64,000 nucleotides of DNA from Methyloprofundus sedimenti (GTDB lineage Bacteria > Pseudomonadota > Gammaproteobacteria > Methylococcales > Methylomonadaceae), in NCBI RefSeq assembly GCF_002072955.1, contig NZ_LPUF01000001.1, positions 828,896-892,895 of the forward strand, read 5' to 3'. Position numbers and translations under genes: made by a program. Below, piece after piece: positions 1 to 7,606 of this stretch. Under the pieces are notes generated by a model. The model searched no databases and was not told the origin of the DNA. It saw nothing but the letters and a program-made list of their open reading frames with translations. Each line of letters begins with the position of its first letter. Position 1 is the first letter of the stretch.

Positions 1-482
1 CATTTCAGTCAGTATGGCCTTCCAATGGTCCTGGTCATATTGGTGGTGAATTCGAGCCTATGGGTGCTTTTGGCTTACCTTTGCTTAATACTTTGATCCT
101 GCTAAGCAGTGGTGTGACCTGCACCTGGGCGCACCATGGATTACTTGCCAAAAATCGCCCGCAACTCATTAAAGGTTTAGCAGCGACTGTTATTTTAGGC
201 TTTTTATTTGTCGCCTTCCAGGCGATTGAGTATCAAGAAGCTTACCATGAAATGGGGCTTACATTGGGCTCTGGAATCTACGGTTCAACTTTCTTTATGC
301 TGACTGGTTTTCACGGTGCGCATGTATGCATTGGTGCTATTATTCTGACAGTGGTTTTATTTCGCAGTTCTAAAGGTCATTTTACTCCGGAAAATCACTT
401 TGCCTTTGAGGCGGCTGCCTGGTATTGGCATTTTGTTGACGTGGTATGGCTAGGTTTGTTTATTTTTGTTTATTTGTTATAA
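1..482 (+). CDS. coxC: cytochrome c oxidase subunit III (CoxC), 3' part
   Basis: This is the C-terminal part of an aa3-type cytochrome c oxidase subunit III, an inner-membrane subunit of the terminal oxidase. The frame is open from the window edge, so the real start lies upstream. Codons from base 3 read a W-P-S-N-G segment and then the family block PLLNT...LLSSGVT.TWAHH, followed by the transmembrane segments with G.HGAHV and the closing W.YWHFVD.VW. The HGAHV and WYWHFVDVVW motifs are diagnostic of the family. The gene is followed at once by a strong terminator, so the cox transcript probably ends here, although more cox-assembly genes follow after a divergently placed small gene. Confidence 0.95.
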   Translation, partial: FQSVWPSNGPGHIGGEFEPMGAFGLPLLNTLILLSSGVTCTWAHHGLLAKNRPQLIKGLAATVILGFLFVAFQAIEYQEAYHEMGLTLGSGIYGSTFFMLTGFHGAHVCIGAIILTVVLFRSSKGHFTPENHFAFEAAAWYWHFVDVVWLGLFIFVYLL

Positions 483-499
483 ACGAATTGCCGAGCAAA

Positions 500-537
500 A
501 AAGCACTGCCTTGTTATAAAGGCAGTGCTTTTTTTTT
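500..537 (+). terminator. rho-independent terminator after coxC
   Basis: An 11-bp perfect stem (AGCACTGCCTT / AAGGCAGTGCT, 502-512 and 519-529) with a 6-nt loop is followed by a run of T. It lies about 20 nt after the coxC stop codon. From here to the end of the next gene (538-686) I see no coding sequence, only a weak 7-bp inverted repeat at about 617-645. Confidence 0.93.
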
Positions 538-686
538 GCCAAAACCAAGTGTCGCTAATAGTTTCAGGCAGTAGCGTCGATTTTAGCCCGCAAACGATGT
601 GTGTCAGGAGGGGGCTGAGGAACGCAGGATAATCAGTTACGTTCCTGTGCTGGCTGCGTTGCTACCAGGCGCAAATTTTAAATTAA

Positions 687-935
687 CTATTTTTGTTGTT
701 CAGCCATTTTTTCTTTCTGCAATTGCATTTGCATGCCTATCCCTGATGGCTGGATAAGTCCACTCATTAAAGCAATAGCCAGCAAGATAAATAAAGCGAG
801 TGAAATACTAATTCGGTAGGTCAGAGCTTTGACTGTTTTCTCTGAAGACTCTTTATTTTTTATGAGATGAAATAATGCAATACCTAGGCTGGCGATAATC
901 GATAAAAAAACCAGAATAATAAAAATCTTTAGCAT
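687..935 (-). CDS. DUF2909 twin-transmembrane protein
   Basis: This 82-residue protein has two predicted membrane helices (about residues 3-24 and 44-62) separated by a basic loop carrying K-T-V-K-A-L-T-Y-R-I-S. The pattern matches the DUF2909 'twin transmembrane' family usually found beside coxC and SURF1 in gammaproteobacterial cox clusters. No catalytic residues are visible, and a role in oxidase assembly is guessed only from location. It runs opposite to coxC and surf1, so it has its own promoter, probably within the AT-rich 936-1013 gap that it shares divergently with the SURF1 gene. Confidence 0.75.
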   Translation of the reverse strand: MLKIFIILVFLSIIASLGIALFHLIKNKESSEKTVKALTYRISISLALFILLAIALMSGLIQPSGIGMQMQLQKEKMAEQQK

Positions 936-1013
936 AATGTTAAGATGTGCAGTAAGTAAAAAAATAATAGTTATATCTTAATACATAACAAACATAATAG
1001 TAACGATCTATCA

Positions 1014-1757
1014 ATGAAGCCGAGTTTTAGTATATGCCACTGTAGAATAAAGGTTCTACCACTGATTGTTTTTATTTGTGTGCTCGCATTACTTCTACGA
1101 CTGGGATTTTGGCAGTTAAGCCGAGCTGAAGAAAAAAGGGAATTATTGGCTAATCAATATTCAAAGATGCAAAAAGAGCTACAACCTATAGGTGAATTAT
1201 TAGCTGAAAGTAATGATCTAAGATATAGGCGAGTTATAGCAGAAGGACACTATGATACGCAGCATCAGATTTTATTAGATAATCAGATTCATGATGGAAA
1301 GGTGGGTTACTTTGTTTTAACCCCCTTTATTCTTGCGGATGAGAATAAAACTTTATTAGTCAACCGGGGGTGGGTGTTGATGGATAAGAACAGGCAGGAG
1401 ATGCCGGATATTGATTTTAGCCCTGCTGCAGAAAAGTTATCCATTATCGGAGTGCTTAATCATTTTCCAGACGTTGGCTTGGTATTGGAAGGAGCTGATG
1501 AGCCAGGGAAAGGATGGCCCTCCTTAGTGCAGATAATAAATAAACAAAAAATGACTAAAAAATTGAATCAGCCAATTATAGATTTACAGTTACAGTTGTC
1601 AGTCGAAGAGCCTTATGGCTATGTACGCGAATGGCAAATCCATACACGTATTCCCCCAGAGAAGCATACCGCTTATGCCTTTCAGTGGTTTGCACTTGCG
1701 GCTACTTTAACTCTTTTACTCCTTTGGACAAGTTGCAGAACACCAAAAAATGATTAA
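1014..1757 (+). CDS. SURF1-family cytochrome oxidase assembly protein
   Basis: SURF1 proteins are inner-membrane factors that help insert heme a into subunit I of cytochrome oxidase. The 247 residues show the family layout: an N-terminal helix (about 14-32) ending in LRLGFWQLSRAEEKRELL, the block L.RYRRV...GHYD....ILLDNQ..DGKVGYFVLTPF, the LLVNRGW signature, and a C-terminal helix (about 220-240). It overlaps the next gene by 8 bp, so the two are translationally linked. Heme A synthase lies two genes downstream, which fits a heme a maturation module. Confidence 0.9.
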   Translation: MKPSFSICHCRIKVLPLIVFICVLALLLRLGFWQLSRAEEKRELLANQYSKMQKELQPIGELLAESNDLRYRRVIAEGHYDTQHQILLDNQIHDGKVGYFVLTPFILADENKTLLVNRGWVLMDKNRQEMPDIDFSPAAEKLSIIGVLNHFPDVGLVLEGADEPGKGWPSLVQIINKQKMTKKLNQPIIDLQLQLSVEEPYGYVREWQIHTRIPPEKHTAYAFQWFALAATLTLLLLWTSCRTPKND

Positions 1758-2346
1758 GCAAATACAGAAAAACCATCGTACGATTATTATTTTAGCCTTA
1801 ATGACGATTATTCCTTTTTCGTTCGCATGGTATTTAACGACAGATCCCGATTTCAAGCCCTCTGCAACTAATAAAGGCGATTTAATTATTCCTGTGATTA
1901 CAACGGAGGACTCTGATTTACAGGGGATTGATGATTTTTCAATTAACAATATTGGGCAATTGAAAGGCCACTGGGTGATGTTGAATATTATTCCTGCAAA
2001 TAATTGTAATAAGCTTTGTGTAGAAGCCATTCATGCCACCAGGCAGTTACGTTTAATGCTCAATAAAGATTTAACGCGTACCCGACGTGCTGTTATTGTT
2101 ATGCAGGGTCAACAAGAGGCTGAATTTCAACCTTGGTGGGATGAAGATGATCGCTTAATAAAGGTGAAGCCGTCTCCTGCATTGGCTATAAAAATCAAGC
2201 AACAGTTGGGCGGTAAGATCGCGGAGGGCAGGTTATTATTAATGGATCCACTTGGAAATATTATGATGCAATACTCGTCTGAGTTTGATCCGTATGCTGT
2301 TAAAAGTGATTTGAAAAAATTACTTAGAATTTCTCAAATTGGGTAG
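1750..2346 (+). CDS. cox-cluster membrane-anchored thioredoxin-like assembly protein
   Basis: This 198-residue protein has one N-terminal helix (about 9-30) and a periplasmic domain. The segment L.GHWVMLNIIPANNCNKLCVEAIHATRQLRLML resembles the beginning of a SCO/thioredoxin-like fold, but the two cysteines are spaced C-x3-C (NCNKLC) and differ from a standard redox centre. Proteins of this type usually sit between SURF1 and CtaA in gammaproteobacterial cox operons and are annotated as hypothetical. A part in copper or thiol handling during oxidase assembly is inferred from position. It is separated by only 6 nt from the ctaA-ftsY fusion gene. Confidence 0.6.
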   Translation: MIKQIQKNHRTIIILALMTIIPFSFAWYLTTDPDFKPSATNKGDLIIPVITTEDSDLQGIDDFSINNIGQLKGHWVMLNIIPANNCNKLCVEAIHATRQLRLMLNKDLTRTRRAVIVMQGQQEAEFQPWWDEDDRLIKVKPSPALAIKIKQQLGGKIAEGRLLLMDPLGNIMMQYSSEFDPYAVKSDLKKLLRISQIG

Positions 2347-2352
2347 ACAGAT

Positions 2353-4290
2353 ATGTTCAGGTTATTTACATTTTTAGTTTGTTTTTTGGTTTTAGTACTG
2401 ACAGCAACAGGAATATACCAGCGTGTTACGCATGTTGATATGGTGTCATGTACCGAACTTTCTGGCTGTTATGCACAATTGACGGAAATGCTCAGTCAGA
2501 CAGCAATCAGTAGTCAAGCTGTAGTGCAATTAATCCATTATACAAGTGCTTTTGGCTTGCCGTTATTTCTTGGTGCAATGCTAATTACGAGTTTTGGGTT
2601 AAAAACAGCGCGCCTTAAAATAATAATTTACACAGTTTTATTAGCCGTTTTAGTCGCTTTACAGATTCAACTGGACATGCATCAAGAGTTTCTGCCAAGT
2701 CTGGCCGTTTCTCATTTTGTACATTATTTAATAAGTGCATTGGCCTTATTCCTTGGCTTCAGTGTTCTCTTAAGCAGCCAGTCTGGCTACATTAAAAAAA
2801 CCGATGCCAGCAGTCAATGGTTACTCTATTCAGGTGCCATTCTTTTGCTGCTGCAACTGTTATTAGGTGCATGGCTTGCTGCAAATAATGCGGCATTGGT
2901 ATGTGGTGACTTCCCGCGTTGTTTAAACAGCTGGTGGCCACAGGCAGATTACCAAAATGCATTTAATTTGTTTGCCCCTTTATCCTTTAGTGCAAAAGTT
3001 GCTTTGAACTGGATGCATCGCATCCTGGCAGTAGTGATTTTTGTATTTCTGACCTGGCTTATGCTGCAAGCGACTAAAAATCGTGTTAAACAAATACGCT
3101 GGGCCGGTGCAGCAATAAGTATATTATTGCTGCTTCAATTTGCTGCGGGTATAGGCATAGTCAAGATGGCTATGCCAGTATGGCTAGTGGTTATTCATAG
3201 TATTAATGCACTTGTTTTGATGTTGCCGCTAATCGCCATTCGCTTTTATAGCAGATATACAAATCTAGATCAGCAAAAAGAAGTAGCGACTCAATTAATT
3301 GATCATGAGCCGTTAATCCCTGTATCTGAATTGGCAGCAGTGCAGCCTGAGCCGGTCGAACCTGAATCTCTGTATTTACGTTTAAAATCACAATTAGGCA
3401 AGACACGCACAGGTTTAGGTGCTGCACTTTCAGTGATTACTTTTGCGAATAGAAAAATTGATCAGAATTTACTGGAAGAGATTGAAACCAGCCTGTTGAT
3501 GGCTGATGTTGGTATGGATGTTACAACGGAAATTATTGCCAGGCTGGAAGAAAGTGTAGAGAAGCATCAGGTACAAGATGTTAATGCCTTATCTGCATTG
3601 CTTAAGCAGCAGCTGCTGAAATTATTAGAGCCAGTCAGCCACCCTTTAGTGATTCCTGAAAAACAAGGTCCTTATGTCATTTTAGTTGTCGGTGTAAATG
3701 GCGTGGGAAAAACCACAACCATTGGCAAGCTGGCGCAAAGATTACAGCAGCAAGGGCATAGTGTCATGCTGGCAGCGGGGGATACCTTTAGAGCTGCGGC
3801 AGTAGAGCAGCTACAAGTGTGGGGTGAACGTAATAATATTCAAGTGGTCGCTCAGCATACAGGTGCTGACTCTGCATCGGTTATTTTTGATGGTGTACAA
3901 TCTGCACAGGCAAAAGGGATAGATGTGCTGATCGCTGATACAGCAGGCCGCCTGCACACCAAATCAAATTTGATGGAAGAGTTAAAGAAAATCAAACGCA
4001 TTACCTCTAAAGTAGATGCAACTGCACCGCATGAAGTACTGCTGGTATTGGATGCGGGAACAGGACAAAATGCGCTTTCTCAAGCTGAACACTTTAACAA
4101 ATCGGTTGAATTAACCGGAATTGCACTAACCAAGTTAGATGGTACAGCGAAAGGTGGTATGATATTTGCGTTGGCTAAACAAATTGGGGTGCCTATTCGT
4201 TTTCTTGGTGTAGGAGAGGGTATAGATGATTTACAAGACTTTAATGCAGAACAGTTTATTGATGCATTATTTGGCGAAGATGCGCATTAA
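2353..4290 (+). CDS. heme A synthase (CtaA/COX15)-FtsY fusion protein
   Basis: One uninterrupted 645-codon frame joins two proteins that are normally separate. Residues 1-303 are a heme A synthase: eight predicted helices, the four candidate heme-ligand histidines (H62, H121 or H124, H222, H282) and two periplasmic cysteine pairs (C33/C39 and C184/C190). The usual Glu three residues before the first His is Q59. Residues 304-340 are an acidic linker like the FtsY A region. Residues 341-645 are the SRP-receptor NG GTPase: Walker A GVNGVGKTTT (447-456), DTFRAAA (477-483), DTAGR (529-533) and TKLDG (593-597). No Met lies between 290 and 383, so a separate FtsY would need a GTG or TTG start. With eight helices the CtaA C-terminus should face the cytoplasm, where FtsY works. 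Upstream neighbours are cox assembly genes; downstream are ftsE and ftsX, the usual ftsY partners. ctaB is missing from its usual place. A sequencing or assembly join cannot be excluded. Confidence 0.88.
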   Translation: MFRLFTFLVCFLVLVLTATGIYQRVTHVDMVSCTELSGCYAQLTEMLSQTAISSQAVVQLIHYTSAFGLPLFLGAMLITSFGLKTARLKIIIYTVLLAVLVALQIQLDMHQEFLPSLAVSHFVHYLISALALFLGFSVLLSSQSGYIKKTDASSQWLLYSGAILLLLQLLLGAWLAANNAALVCGDFPRCLNSWWPQADYQNAFNLFAPLSFSAKVALNWMHRILAVVIFVFLTWLMLQATKNRVKQIRWAGAAISILLLLQFAAGIGIVKMAMPVWLVVIHSINALVLMLPLIAIRFYSRYTNLDQQKEVATQLIDHEPLIPVSELAAVQPEPVEPESLYLRLKSQLGKTRTGLGAALSVITFANRKIDQNLLEEIETSLLMADVGMDVTTEIIARLEESVEKHQVQDVNALSALLKQQLLKLLEPVSHPLVIPEKQGPYVILVVGVNGVGKTTTIGKLAQRLQQQGHSVMLAAGDTFRAAAVEQLQVWGERNNIQVVAQHTGADSASVIFDGVQSAQAKGIDVLIADTAGRLHTKSNLMEELKKIKRITSKVDATAPHEVLLVLDAGTGQNALSQAEHFNKSVELTGIALTKLDGTAKGGMIFALAKQIGVPIRFLGVGEGIDDLQDFNAEQFIDALFGEDAH

Positions 4291-4295
4291 AGCTT

Positions 4296-4958
4296 ATGTT
4301 GACTGTTGATCATGTATTTAAGCGCTATGCAGATGCAGGCGATGCCTTACTTGATGTGAGTTTTCATCTAGGAAAAGGTGAGATGGCATTTTTAACGGGT
4401 CACTCAGGTGCAGGAAAAAGCACCTTGTTAAAACTGATTGCCGCAATTGAGCGTTGCTCGCGTGGACAAATACTGTTTGACGGGCAAAATCTGAATCGAT
4501 TAACTGATAGGCAAGTTCCCTACTTACGACGTAAGTTAGGTCTCATTTTTCAGGACTATAAGTTACTGTTTGATAAAACGGTATTTGACAATGTTGCGTT
4601 GCCAATGGTTGTTGCTGGTGTAGGGCCGCATGAAGTTGCCAGACGTGTACGTGCATCATTAGATAAAGTTGGCTTGTTGGGTAAAGAGAATAAGTATCCC
4701 CTGGCTTTATCGGGAGGAGAGCAGCAGCGCATCGGGATAGCTCGTGCCGTTGTTAATAAACCGGCATTGATTTTGGCGGATGAGCCTACTGGAAATCTGG
4801 ATCCTGAATTATCCGCAGAAATTATGCACTTGTTTGAACAATTTAAGCAAGTTGGCGTCACTGTTTTAATTGCCACACATGATATAGATTTAGTAAGTAA
4901 ATTAAATCATAAGGTGTTGAAATTAGAACATGGCAGACTGTTGGGGCAGCACGCATGA
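4296..4958 (+). CDS. ftsE: cell division ATP-binding protein FtsE
   Basis: FtsE is the ATPase of the FtsEX complex, which regulates periplasmic septal peptidoglycan hydrolases at the divisome. In this 220-residue protein the Walker A is GHSGAGKST (35-43), the ABC signature LSGGEQQ (138-144), and Walker B ILADEP with the catalytic Glu at 163. Length and sequence fit FtsE closely. The gene starts 5 nt after the fused ftsY and overlaps ftsX by 4 nt (ATGA), so all three form one operon. Confidence 0.95.
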   Translation: MLTVDHVFKRYADAGDALLDVSFHLGKGEMAFLTGHSGAGKSTLLKLIAAIERCSRGQILFDGQNLNRLTDRQVPYLRRKLGLIFQDYKLLFDKTVFDNVALPMVVAGVGPHEVARRVRASLDKVGLLGKENKYPLALSGGEQQRIGIARAVVNKPALILADEPTGNLDPELSAEIMHLFEQFKQVGVTVLIATHDIDLVSKLNHKVLKLEHGRLLGQHA

Positions 4959-5944
4959 AACCCGTTAGAAAAGCACGAGGACAAAAAGTCAGAAATAGCA
5001 ATATTATCAAGCGTGGGCCAGAAAACCGCGTTTTAACCAGTCTGAAGCTACAAACTCAGTCGCTTAATTCTAGCTTGCTACGCCTGTTAAGAGCTCCTTT
5101 TACATCGGCAATGGCAATTATAGTCATGGCGATAGCAATCGCTTTGGCGGGTAGTTTTTATGTTTTAGTGAATAACGCTCAGCAACTGGTTGATTCCTTA
5201 CAGACTGGAAAACAAATATCTTTGTTTTTACATGAGAAAATTAGTGACGATGAGGCCAGGGTGCTAGCTCAGAAATTACTGACTAATGAGGCGATAGAAA
5301 ATGTAAATGTCATATCCAAACAGCAGGCATTAGCAGAATTTCAACAATATAGTGGTTTTGGTGCGGCCTTGAATGCGCTAGAGAGCAACCCGCTGCCTGC
5401 AGTAATTCAGGTCTTTCCTAAAGATTCTCTAACGAAAGCCAGTCAGCTAAAAGAACTATTGCAACAAATGCAGCATGAGCAAGCGGTTGATTTTGCGCAA
5501 ATGGATATGCAATGGCTTGCACGTTTACAAGCCATCATGAAAATGGCAAATCGCGTCGCGCTTATTTTAACGGGCTTACTGGCAATTGCCGTGTTGTTTA
5601 TAATTGGCAATACCATACGCTCTGAATTGCAATCACGTAGAGATGAAGTGATTGTGACAAAATTAGTAGGAGGAACCAATACTTTTATTTGTCTGCCTTT
5701 TTTATACACGGGTTTTTGGTATGGTTTTATATCAGGTGTATTGGCGTGGTGTGTTATTAGTTTGATATTATTAACGGTTAATACTCCGATAGAGCAATTA
5801 GCGTTACTCTACCAAAGTCAGTTTCAAATACAGTTTTTGAGTTTTAGTGAATCAATCTATTTGCTGATGGCATCATCTACTTTGGGAATGTTAGGTGCAT
5901 ATACAGTAGCTAGGCATCAATTAAGCATATTAAAGCCAGAATAG
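4955..5944 (+). CDS. ftsX: cell division permease-like protein FtsX
   Basis: FtsX is the membrane partner of FtsE and passes ATP-driven movement to periplasmic hydrolase activators. The 329 residues give a cytoplasmic N-terminus of about 48 residues rich in basic amino acids, helix 1 (about 49-72), a periplasmic domain (about 75-195), and three more helices near 199-220, 248-275 and 303-322. The QSRRDEVIVTKLVGGTNTFICLPFLYTG segment after helix 2 is typical of the family. rpoH, which often follows ftsX in gammaproteobacteria, is absent; hfq follows instead. Confidence 0.93.
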   Translation: MKPVRKARGQKVRNSNIIKRGPENRVLTSLKLQTQSLNSSLLRLLRAPFTSAMAIIVMAIAIALAGSFYVLVNNAQQLVDSLQTGKQISLFLHEKISDDEARVLAQKLLTNEAIENVNVISKQQALAEFQQYSGFGAALNALESNPLPAVIQVFPKDSLTKASQLKELLQQMQHEQAVDFAQMDMQWLARLQAIMKMANRVALILTGLLAIAVLFIIGNTIRSELQSRRDEVIVTKLVGGTNTFICLPFLYTGFWYGFISGVLAWCVISLILLTVNTPIEQLALLYQSQFQIQFLSFSESIYLLMASSTLGMLGAYTVARHQLSILKPE

Positions 5945-6071
5945 TATTGAATTTTAGCATTGCGTCCTTATATCTTGTAAAGCGGACTAATTATCGGTAA
6001 GGTATCGATTCAGGTAGTTTTGAATTACCCTGATCGGGCAAAACAAATAACAAAAAAAAAGGGAGAAAAAC

Positions 6072-6308
6072 ATGCCAAAAAATCAAAATTTACAGGATAC
6101 TTTTTTAAATTCACTTAGAAAAGAGCATACTCCTGTATCTATTTTTTTAGTGAATGGCATTAAATTGCAAGGCCGTGTTGATTCATTTGATCAGTATGTT
6201 GTTATGCTAAAAAATACTATGGTGCAAATGGTTTATAAGCATGCTATCTCAACTATAGTTCCAGGTAAACCCGTGACTATGATAAATAAAGAAGTTGGAG
6301 TTGAATAA
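6072..6308 (+). CDS. hfq: RNA chaperone Hfq
   Basis: Hfq is a hexameric Sm-like protein that pairs small RNAs with mRNAs. The 78-residue frame is nearly all Sm core: the N-terminal LQD.FLN.LRKE...[12 protein letters not shown], then the Sm1 motif [12 protein letters not shown], and the Sm2 motif YKHAIST. The C-terminal tail is only about 12 residues, much shorter than in E. coli. A clear ribosome-binding site (GGGAGAA) lies 6-7 nt before the ATG. The gene heads the conserved run hfq-hflX-hflK-hflC. Confidence 0.97.
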
Positions 6309-6340
6309 TTTGAGAGCCCGTATAAGCAAGGAACTTAACC

Positions 6341-7606
6341 TTGTTTGATCGCCCAGAATCCGGAGAAAGAGCTGTTCTGGTGCATATCAATCTTTACGAA
6401 GGTCAGGAAGATTTAAATGAATTAAAAGAATTGGCGAGGTCAGCAGGAGCAGAAGTTGTTCATGTCTTGACAGGATCACGCAAGTATCCTGATGCTAAGT
6501 ATTTTATCGGTTCCGGTAAGTTAGAAGAATTAAGGGCAGTCATTGAAGAAACAGAAGCAGATCTTGTGCTGTTTAATCATGTGTTAACGCCTAGTCAGGA
6601 GCGTAATTTAGAGGCTGCACTGGAGTTCCGTGTCGTTGATCGAAATGGTTTGATTCTGGATATATTCGCACTGCGTGCAAAATCATATGATGGAAAATTA
6701 CAAGTTGAACTGGCACAGTTAAATCACTTGTCTTCGCGTTTGACCCGTGGATGGACTCATCTGGATAGGCAAAAGGGTGGGATAGGCATGCGTGGAACGG
6801 GGGAAACTCAGTTGGAGGATGACCGACGACAGGTCGGTGCACGTATCAAATTAGTGCAAAGCCGTCTGGAAAAAGTTGTTAAGCAGCGTCATCAAGGGCG
6901 TGCGAGGCGAAAGCGATCTGAAACGCCAGGTTTATCCTTGGTAGGTTATACTAATGCGGGGAAATCTACATTATTTAATCGTCTGACCGGCGCAGATATA
7001 TATGCGGCAGATCAGTTGTTTGCGACGCTGGACCCAACGCTAAGACGCTTTAAATTACCTAATGCTGCAGAAGTTGTGCTGGCAGATACAGTTGGTTTTA
7101 TCCGCCATTTGCCGCATGAATTAGTGGCTGCATTCAAATCAACTTTGCAGGAAGCAACAGAAGCTGATTTATTGTTACATATCATTGATGCTAATGATGA
7201 GTATCGGGCTGAAACTATAGCTGAAGTCAATCGTGTACTTAAAGAAATTGGTGCTGATACTAATCAGCAACTGGAAGTATTTAATAAAATTGATCTTCTC
7301 GATGACTTTGAGCCACATATAGATCGTAATGATCAGGGGTTGCCTATACGTGTTTGGGTATCAGCAAAGACAGGAGCTGGCATGGGCCTGCTGTTACAGG
7401 CATTGGCGGAAATATTTTCCGCGACTAAAGTTACCCGCTTATGTCATTTATTACCTAGTCAGGGCAGCGTGCGAGCAAAATTGTTTTCAGTTGCTCATAT
7501 TATGCAGGAAGATTTTACCGAGCAGGGTGGGTGGGATTTGCTGGTAGAAATTGATCAACAGTACATGGGGGTCTTAGGAGATGTGGATGTTGAAGAAATT
7601 ATTTAA
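6341..7606 (+). CDS. hflX: ribosome-associated GTPase HflX
   Basis: HflX is a GTPase that binds and splits stalled 70S ribosomes. In this 421-residue protein the N-terminal domain ends in the family signature GGIGMRGTGETQLE (146-159), a coiled linker follows, and the G domain has G1 GYTNAGKST (202-210), G3 DTVGF (249-253) and G4 NKID (315-318). The start codon is TTG at 6341, supported by an AAGGAA ribosome-binding site 7 nt upstream; no in-frame ATG lies near the conserved N-terminus. The gene is 32 nt downstream of hfq and probably co-transcribed with it. Confidence 0.95.
   Translation: MFDRPESGERAVLVHINLYEGQEDLNELKELARSAGAEVVHVLTGSRKYPDAKYFIGSGKLEELRAVIEETEADLVLFNHVLTPSQERNLEAALEFRVVDRNGLILDIFALRAKSYDGKLQVELAQLNHLSSRLTRGWTHLDRQKGGIGMRGTGETQLEDDRRQVGARIKLVQSRLEKVVKQRHQGRARRKRSETPGLSLVGYTNAGKSTLFNRLTGADIYAADQLFATLDPTLRRFKLPNAAEVVLADTVGFIRHLPHELVAAFKSTLQEATEADLLLHIIDANDEYRAETIAEVNRVLKEIGADTNQQLEVFNKIDLLDDFEPHIDRNDQGLPIRVWVSAKTGAGMGLLLQALAEIFSATKVTRLCHLLPSQGSVRAKLFSVAHIMQEDFTEQGGWDLLVEIDQQYMGVLGDVDVEEII

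Follow-up and report, generated by a model that had tools for sequence, protein, structure and literature searches.

An FtsY fused to a heme A synthase domain suggests reuse of an enzyme as a membrane anchor in Methyloprofundus sedimenti and its relatives

We analyzed a stretch of 64,000 nucleotides from Methyloprofundus sedimenti (contig NZ_LPUF01000001.1, positions 828,896 to 892,895 of the forward strand), referred to here as the window. Near its start, a single frame (2353-4290) encodes, in order, an eight-helix CtaA/COX15 domain, an acidic linker, and FtsY, with its membrane-binding helix and a complete NG GTPase. Genes for cytochrome oxidase and its assembly precede this frame, and ftsE and ftsX follow it. 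A COX1 gene (C1:826299-827627) ends ~1.3 kb upstream of the window. The features of the locus, in window positions, are:

60..482, + strand: cytochrome oxidase subunit III (cox3), C-terminal part as read in the window (PF00510, profile positions 123-255 of 258)
687-935, - strand: DUF2909 gene between cox3 and surf1
1014..1757, + strand: SURF1 oxidase assembly gene (surf1), upstream neighbor kept with the fusion
1750..2346, + strand: gene for a 198-aa protein (orf198), upstream neighbor kept with the fusion (NF058629, 48.3 bits, below the cut-off of 230)
2353..4290, + strand: ctaA::ftsY fusion gene, 645 aa plus stop in a single frame
2353..2802, + strand: N-terminal four-helix half of the CtaA domain, aa 1-150, decaying
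2527..2529, + strand: Gln59 codon, aligned to the catalytic Glu (B. subtilis E57)
2803..3261, + strand: C-terminal four-helix half of the CtaA domain (heme-b half), aa 151-303
2902..2922, + strand: ECL3 cysteine pair C184...C190 (B. subtilis C191/C197), both kept in 69/70 fused domains
3016..3018, + strand: His222, presumed heme-b ligand (B. subtilis H216), 70/70 as aligned, with G024 unsure
3196..3198, + strand: His282, presumed heme-b ligand (B. subtilis H278), 70/70
3286..3366, + strand: disordered core of the acidic linker, aa 312-338 (pLDDT < 50)
3370..3408, + strand: FtsY membrane-targeting amphipathic helix, aa 340-352 (invariant residues; alignment to E. coli FtsY)
3427..4281, + strand: FtsY NG GTPase, aa 359-643 (profile and structural alignment)
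4296..4958, + strand: downstream neighbor with an ABC_tran match, which we take to be ftsE from its place before ftsX
4955..5944, + strand: ftsX, downstream neighbor (PF18075 and PF02687)

The 198-aa gene between surf1 and the fusion has a weak likeness to the PA0111/PP_0108 family of redox-active disulfide proteins, and its position is held in fused loci. A scan of positions 1-6400 for promoters and terminators gave no excess over expectation (18 promoter-like sites against 17.8 expected, and 7 terminator-like sites against 5.8). The fused gene itself contains, at 3109-3133, a terminator-like stem of 10 pairs; such sites overall were no commoner than chance.

The CtaA part of the window protein is predicted to adopt an eight-helix fold of twin four-helix bundles. 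This part was folded separately because the matches in full-length structure searches were all relatives of FtsY and Ffh. The charges of the loops agree with a cytoplasmic N-terminus and, provided that the N-terminus is cytoplasmic, the even number of helices places the NG domain in the cytoplasm, as the sequence-only reading had argued. A crude hydropathy count over 70 fused domains gave eight helices in 62, seven in 4, nine in 2, five in 1, and six in 1. One fused protein (G030; L174 390-2081, - strand) has lost the TM2-TM3 region and has six predicted helices, again an even number, so its GTPase would still be cytoplasmic.

The FtsY part is complete. Its NG domain scored above the cut-off of the curated FtsY model (TIGR00064, 367.9 bits; cut-off 260.7), and the structural alignment with E. 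coli FtsY begins at residue 194 of the latter. Six residues of the membrane helix (R343, L344, Q347, L348, T351, and R352) are invariant in 25 sequences. The linker between the helix bundle and the NG domain is of low predicted confidence and is 24-65 aa long in the 58 of 61 fused proteins in which it was measurable.

We found the same fusion in 50 of the 61 genomes searched (that of M. sedimenti and 60 relatives), which confirms the initial reading of the frame as a single 645-codon CtaA-FtsY gene. This number includes one gene that is partial at a contig end (G012) and one whose CtaA part was recognized by alignment and not by Pfam (G024). Separate ctaA and ftsY genes are present in seven genomes, all in families f7 and f8. 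The other four genomes were not judged: three had no FtsY that we could find, and in one (G002) the locus was interrupted by a contig end. The fusion occurs in six of eight sampled families of the order. In a scan of named genomes, 25 of the best 80 loci were fused and 55 were unfused. The fused carriers included Methylomonas methanica, M. koyamae, Candidatus Methylobacter oryzae, Methylovulum, and Crenothrix polyspora, along with one record labelled Gammaproteobacteria and one labelled uncultured proteobacterium. The carriers' names point to Methylococcales as the order. A sample of 276 genomes of the class (3 of them in the order) included at least 174 with CtaA. Among the matches listed, four of the longest frames from outside the order (G189, G219, G313, and G104) gave no FtsY match. 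A link between the fusion and the methane/ammonia monooxygenase family was considered and rejected: PF02461 is found in 47 of the 61 genomes, and these belong to fused as well as unfused families.

In M. sedimenti we found no FtsY apart from the fusion. A search of its genome with PF00448 gave two places, the fusion and a 456-aa frame that we took as Ffh because of its length and its 34% identity to the fusion; no second FtsY was found by this search. PF02628 likewise matched twice, in the fusion and in a standalone CtaA at C1:2336574 (194 bits). There is also a heme O synthase at C1:1995701. The sequence-only reading had listed intact separate copies elsewhere in the genome as findings that would speak against it. 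For ftsY none was found; for ctaA there is one such copy, of another type.

The flanking genes indicate how the join might have arisen. In unfused relatives (G048, G053, and G043 of families f7 and f8, and Cycloclasticus, L116), a cox3-surf1-orf198-ctaA-ctaB cluster faces a rpoH-ftsX-ftsE-ftsY cluster on the opposite strand. The distance from ctaA to ftsX is 2.5-4.8 kb in G048, G053, and G043, with extra intervening genes in G043. The cox-side and fts-side clusters of G042 lie on different contigs. The complete convergent set is also present in unfused L130 (Betaproteobacteria) and L159 (Gammaproteobacteria), and in the remaining unfused named loci it is partial or absent within the stretch covered. 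All 25 fused named loci have the order cox3-surf1-orf198-ctaA::ftsY-ftsE-ftsX as far as the contigs extend, followed by rpoH in 12; ctaB adjoins the fusion in none of the 25. The initial impression of two operons spliced together is borne out by relatives that carry the two clusters separately. Because the clusters face each other, a single inversion running from the 3' end of ctaA to the 5' end of ftsY could account for the join in one step. Five unfused FtsY proteins start with MFGFGKKK or MFGFGNKK, followed by a short stretch and then the membrane helix; in the fusion the CtaA domain takes the place of this short start. As a result of the join, ftsY is now downstream of the oxidase genes and on the same strand.

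In the FtsY tree all 61 fused rows are on one side of one branch (support 88), with one change of label, and the outgroup rows L126, L130, and L159 are on very long branches. The tree built from the CtaA part requires the fused label to change twice (forced minimum one), because the fused CtaA of G040 groups with unfused proteins (fork support 94, not starred).

We asked which residues of the CtaA domain are kept in the fusion, using the numbering of B. subtilis CtaA. In true heme A synthases the N-terminal half is the substrate and catalytic half. It binds the substrate heme o through H60 and H123, with E57 proposed to be catalytic, and the C-terminal half binds heme b through H216 and H278 (PMC12808453, PMC8239418, PMC7327177, PMC13213658). 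The catalytic Glu, part of an E-x-x-H-R motif, is described as strictly conserved (PMC12808453), and the matching Glu of yeast Cox15 is reported to be essential, as E166A abolishes activity (PMC13213658). In B. subtilis, the cysteines of ECL1 are described as important for activity and those of ECL3 as unimportant for heme A synthesis (PMC8239418).

In the window protein, Gln59 stands where B. subtilis CtaA has E57, and the catalytic Glu is absent. The protein keeps H62 (at the place of H60), C33 and C39 in ECL1 (the cysteine pair of type 1 proteins), C184 and C190, H222, and H282; the equivalent of H123 is either H124 or H127, where the alignment is unsure. Sites were placed by motif and helix on the alignment rather than residue by residue on structures, and the structure alignment (A3) comprised 24 of the 25 named fused loci (L089, with a cut N-terminus, was excluded). 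Among 70 fused domains, E57 is kept in 18 and absent in 52, H60 is kept in 52, and H123 in 49. All three are present together in 15. The ECL1 places retain cysteine in 54/70 (C35) and 53/70 (C42). C191 and C197 of ECL3 are kept in 69/70, and H216 and H278 in 70/70, with one placement (H216 of G024) unsure. All nine residues are invariant in 13/13 unfused controls, which were picked by hand from unfused loci. The counts exclude L019 (G012), cut by a contig end, and L090, L095, L098, and L109, which appear to repeat genes already counted. In G024 (L171 1230-3053, - strand), the fused membrane domain is below Pfam detection and has lost ECL3 with its cysteines; there is a His at both heme-b places, the one at H216 being unsure.

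On the FtsY tree (60 fused rows), the fewest changes needed are 11 for E57, 10 for H60, 10 for H123, and 3 for C35, and zero for C191, H216, and H278. In 60 fused sequences, full invariance is seen at eight columns of the CtaA domain, every one in the C-terminal half; the heme-b ligands and the ECL3 cysteines make up four of the eight. By site rate, E57 moves from rank 34 of 318 (slow) in unfused proteins to rank 283 in fused proteins, where C191, C197, H216, and H278 are among the six slowest sites. Mean pairwise identity of the N- and C-terminal halves is 0.316 and 0.449 in fused proteins versus 0.546 and 0.474 in unfused proteins. In 14 hand-picked pairs, dN/dS was 0.07-0.22 in the N-terminal half, 0.07-0.15 in the C-terminal half, 0.13-0.58 in the linker, and 0.02-0.08 in NG; one N-half and two linker values were not computable, and synonymous sites approached saturation in many of the pairs. 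Where dS was < 1 in each of the four regions (three pairs), the N-half values were 0.075, 0.175, and 0.224. Both CtaA halves are thus under purifying selection.

Based on the residues, rates, and identities, we conclude that the catalytic half is decaying and that the heme-b half is kept. This pattern would be the reverse of what activity needs. Given the loss of the Glu, the window protein probably does not convert heme O to heme A, and the earlier assumption that the fused copy is a working heme A synthase is unsupported. Natural types of CtaA with substitutions of E57 have been described (E57N often in one, E57K with H123N in another; PMC8239418), so the fusion is not alone in having lost this Glu. 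These types count slightly against reading the domain as a retired enzyme.

Most genomes with the fusion also have another CtaA. We found a second CtaA in 47 of 49 genomes with a scored fused domain (in two pieces in G013, partial in G017). None was found in G040 (94% complete) or G050 (85% complete); the E57/H60/H123 set of the fused copy is intact in G040 and lost in G050. Of 42 genomes in which this set is lost, 41 have a second CtaA, the exception being G050. In six genomes a second CtaA coexists with an intact set. The standalone copies all have Asn at the place of H60 (16/16, including L001 1471-2454); they keep the Glu and the ECL1 cysteines, and the ECL3 pair is absent. They resemble the H60N type described in PMC8239418, and the nine of them on the tree form a separate clade on a long branch. 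These distributions fit the notion that the fused copy was freed from catalysis once another CtaA was present.

We think that the fused protein is quite probably an SRP receptor integral to the membrane, whose anchor is a retired heme A synthase with the heme-b half preserved. The support at the level of sequence is a single selected frame kept through six families, the only FtsY found, eight predicted helices, and an intact NG domain. We suggest that an ancestor of six of the eight sampled families gained an in-frame junction between ftsY and ctaA, which precedes ctaB in the cox operon. The join would have swapped the short N-terminal start of FtsY for the CtaA domain and retained FtsY's own membrane-targeting helix. 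The eight-helix domain would then hold the GTPase permanently at the membrane, where SRP-ribosome complexes could dock on a fixed receptor. An FtsY tethered by a transmembrane domain is reported to function in vivo in E. coli (PMC2780400, citing Zelazny 1997), and an anchored arrangement is therefore workable. In the lineage of M. sedimenti, the catalytic half, with Glu57 replaced, would no longer make heme A and the separate CtaA would. The C-terminal bundle would still bind one heme b through His222 and His282, with a C184-C190 disulfide as a brace. The conserved ligands point to heme binding by the fused domain, and the heme-b site is likely to be structural: heme b would most likely hold the core of the anchor together, so that the receptor matures only once heme b is loaded. 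The N-terminal half of the window protein may also still bind a heme, because H62, a His near the place of H123, and both ECL1 cysteines are kept. This retention, the purifying selection on that half, the losses in G024 (the ECL3 cysteines and Pfam detection), and the two changes on the CtaA tree count against reading the protein as a receptor anchored by a retired enzyme.

The strict conservation of FtsY's own helix is not what a purely redundant anchor predicts. The amphipathic helix before the N domain serves in the membrane targeting of FtsY, and specifically in the second, stable and activating step of membrane engagement. Engagement by E. coli FtsY is described as a dynamic contact followed by a stable mode that is induced by SRP and activates FtsY (PMC5533587). 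By analogy with these two steps, and because the helix is invariant, the anchor may stand in for the first of them, tethering, but not for activation.

The conservation of the heme-b half might instead indicate a sensor, a cytochrome-b-type SRP receptor in which the disulfide-bearing heme-b bundle taken from heme A synthase signals to the NG GTPase and gates co-translational targeting of membrane proteins according to heme supply or the redox state of the respiratory membrane. We consider this unlikely, but the strongest of the alternatives. The heme-b ligands and the ECL3 cysteines are among the slowest sites even though the latter are described as unimportant for heme A synthesis (PMC8239418), and autoinhibition is reported to bar free E. 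coli FtsY from stable engagement with the membrane until SRP acts (PMC5533587). However, structural retention accounts for the same pattern of conservation, and a linker of low confidence and variable length offers no obvious path for a signal from the bundle to NG.

A bifunctional enzyme is less probable still. Here the fused CtaA would make heme A, and the tether would couple co-translational targeting of the oxidase with the supply of heme a, as first proposed from the sequence. The 15/70 domains with E57, H60, and H123 intact, the maintained order of cox3, surf1, orf198, and the fusion, and the natural E57-substituted types (PMC8239418) are consistent with this. In G040, where no other CtaA was found, the fusion (L074 7861-9951) lies behind cox3 and surf1 and has every catalytic residue; heme A synthesis may depend on it there, and it may be a bifunctional enzyme. 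On the other hand, E57 is among the faster sites of the fused proteins, and the ECL1 cysteines, which are relevant to activity, are lost in about one fifth of the fused domains while the dispensable ECL3 pair is retained almost throughout. Coupling of heme a insertion to targeting is unsupported for the window protein, because it has Gln59 at E57 and a separate CtaA exists; it could apply to the minority with the intact set.

It is improbable that the working FtsY is a separate soluble product, made from an internal start or by proteolysis, with the CtaA part free to drift. E. coli FtsY can be cleaved near its N-terminus, according to the titles of cited references, and 23 of 61 fused genes have some in-frame start with a four-base match to a ribosome site between TM8 and the GTPase. 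However, five-base matches occur in only 4/61, all four inside the NG domain, and no start recurs in the linker among the 61 genes, although this is a weak test as the fusion's own start reaches four bases in only 5/61. Purifying selection on both CtaA halves also argues against free drift. An artefact of assembly or a frameshift is refuted for practical purposes, since the fused frame is conserved in many independent genomes, including strain-titled records.

Our results suggest that a former heme-making enzyme has been recycled as a permanent membrane anchor in many methane-oxidising bacteria and their kin. How FtsY attaches to the membrane is a long-studied question, and in six of eight sampled families the usual N-terminal attachment appears to have been exchanged for a permanent eight-helix anchor with FtsY's own helix still invariant. 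In the fusion, the catalytic and heme-b halves of heme A synthase have also come apart naturally; the role of heme b in the synthase is described as not fully elucidated (PMC7327177, PMC12808453). Two questions can now be tested: what FtsY's membrane helix contributes apart from tethering, and why an enzyme that repeatedly loses its catalytic residues must keep its heme-b ligands. In keeping with the initial reading, we found no description of a CtaA-FtsY protein in our searches of the open literature. Synthase proteins fused to another gene are stated to have been excluded from the alignments in PMC12808453.

The NG domain of the fusion is like that of E. coli FtsY, and the N-terminal region is replaced by the eight-helix domain. 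Compared to the CtaA/COX15 proteins of B. subtilis (6a2j) and Aquifex (8aw5), the fused domain of the window protein lacks the catalytic Glu and has a GTPase attached. CtaA-CtaB fusions are known (PMC9145763, PMC8239418) and also involve CtaA, but they join two steps of one pathway, whereas the CtaA-FtsY fusion joins two processes that are separate elsewhere. In arrangement the fusion resembles the integral-membrane FtsY of Actinobacteria (PMC6022935, citing the 2001 note 'Putative integral membrane SRP receptors') and engineered, tethered FtsY (PMC2780400), which are likewise permanently in the membrane. In Actinobacteria the anchor is a hydrophobic N-terminal segment and in the engineered proteins it is foreign; in the fusion it is a natural eight-helix relative of a heme enzyme, with conserved heme ligands.
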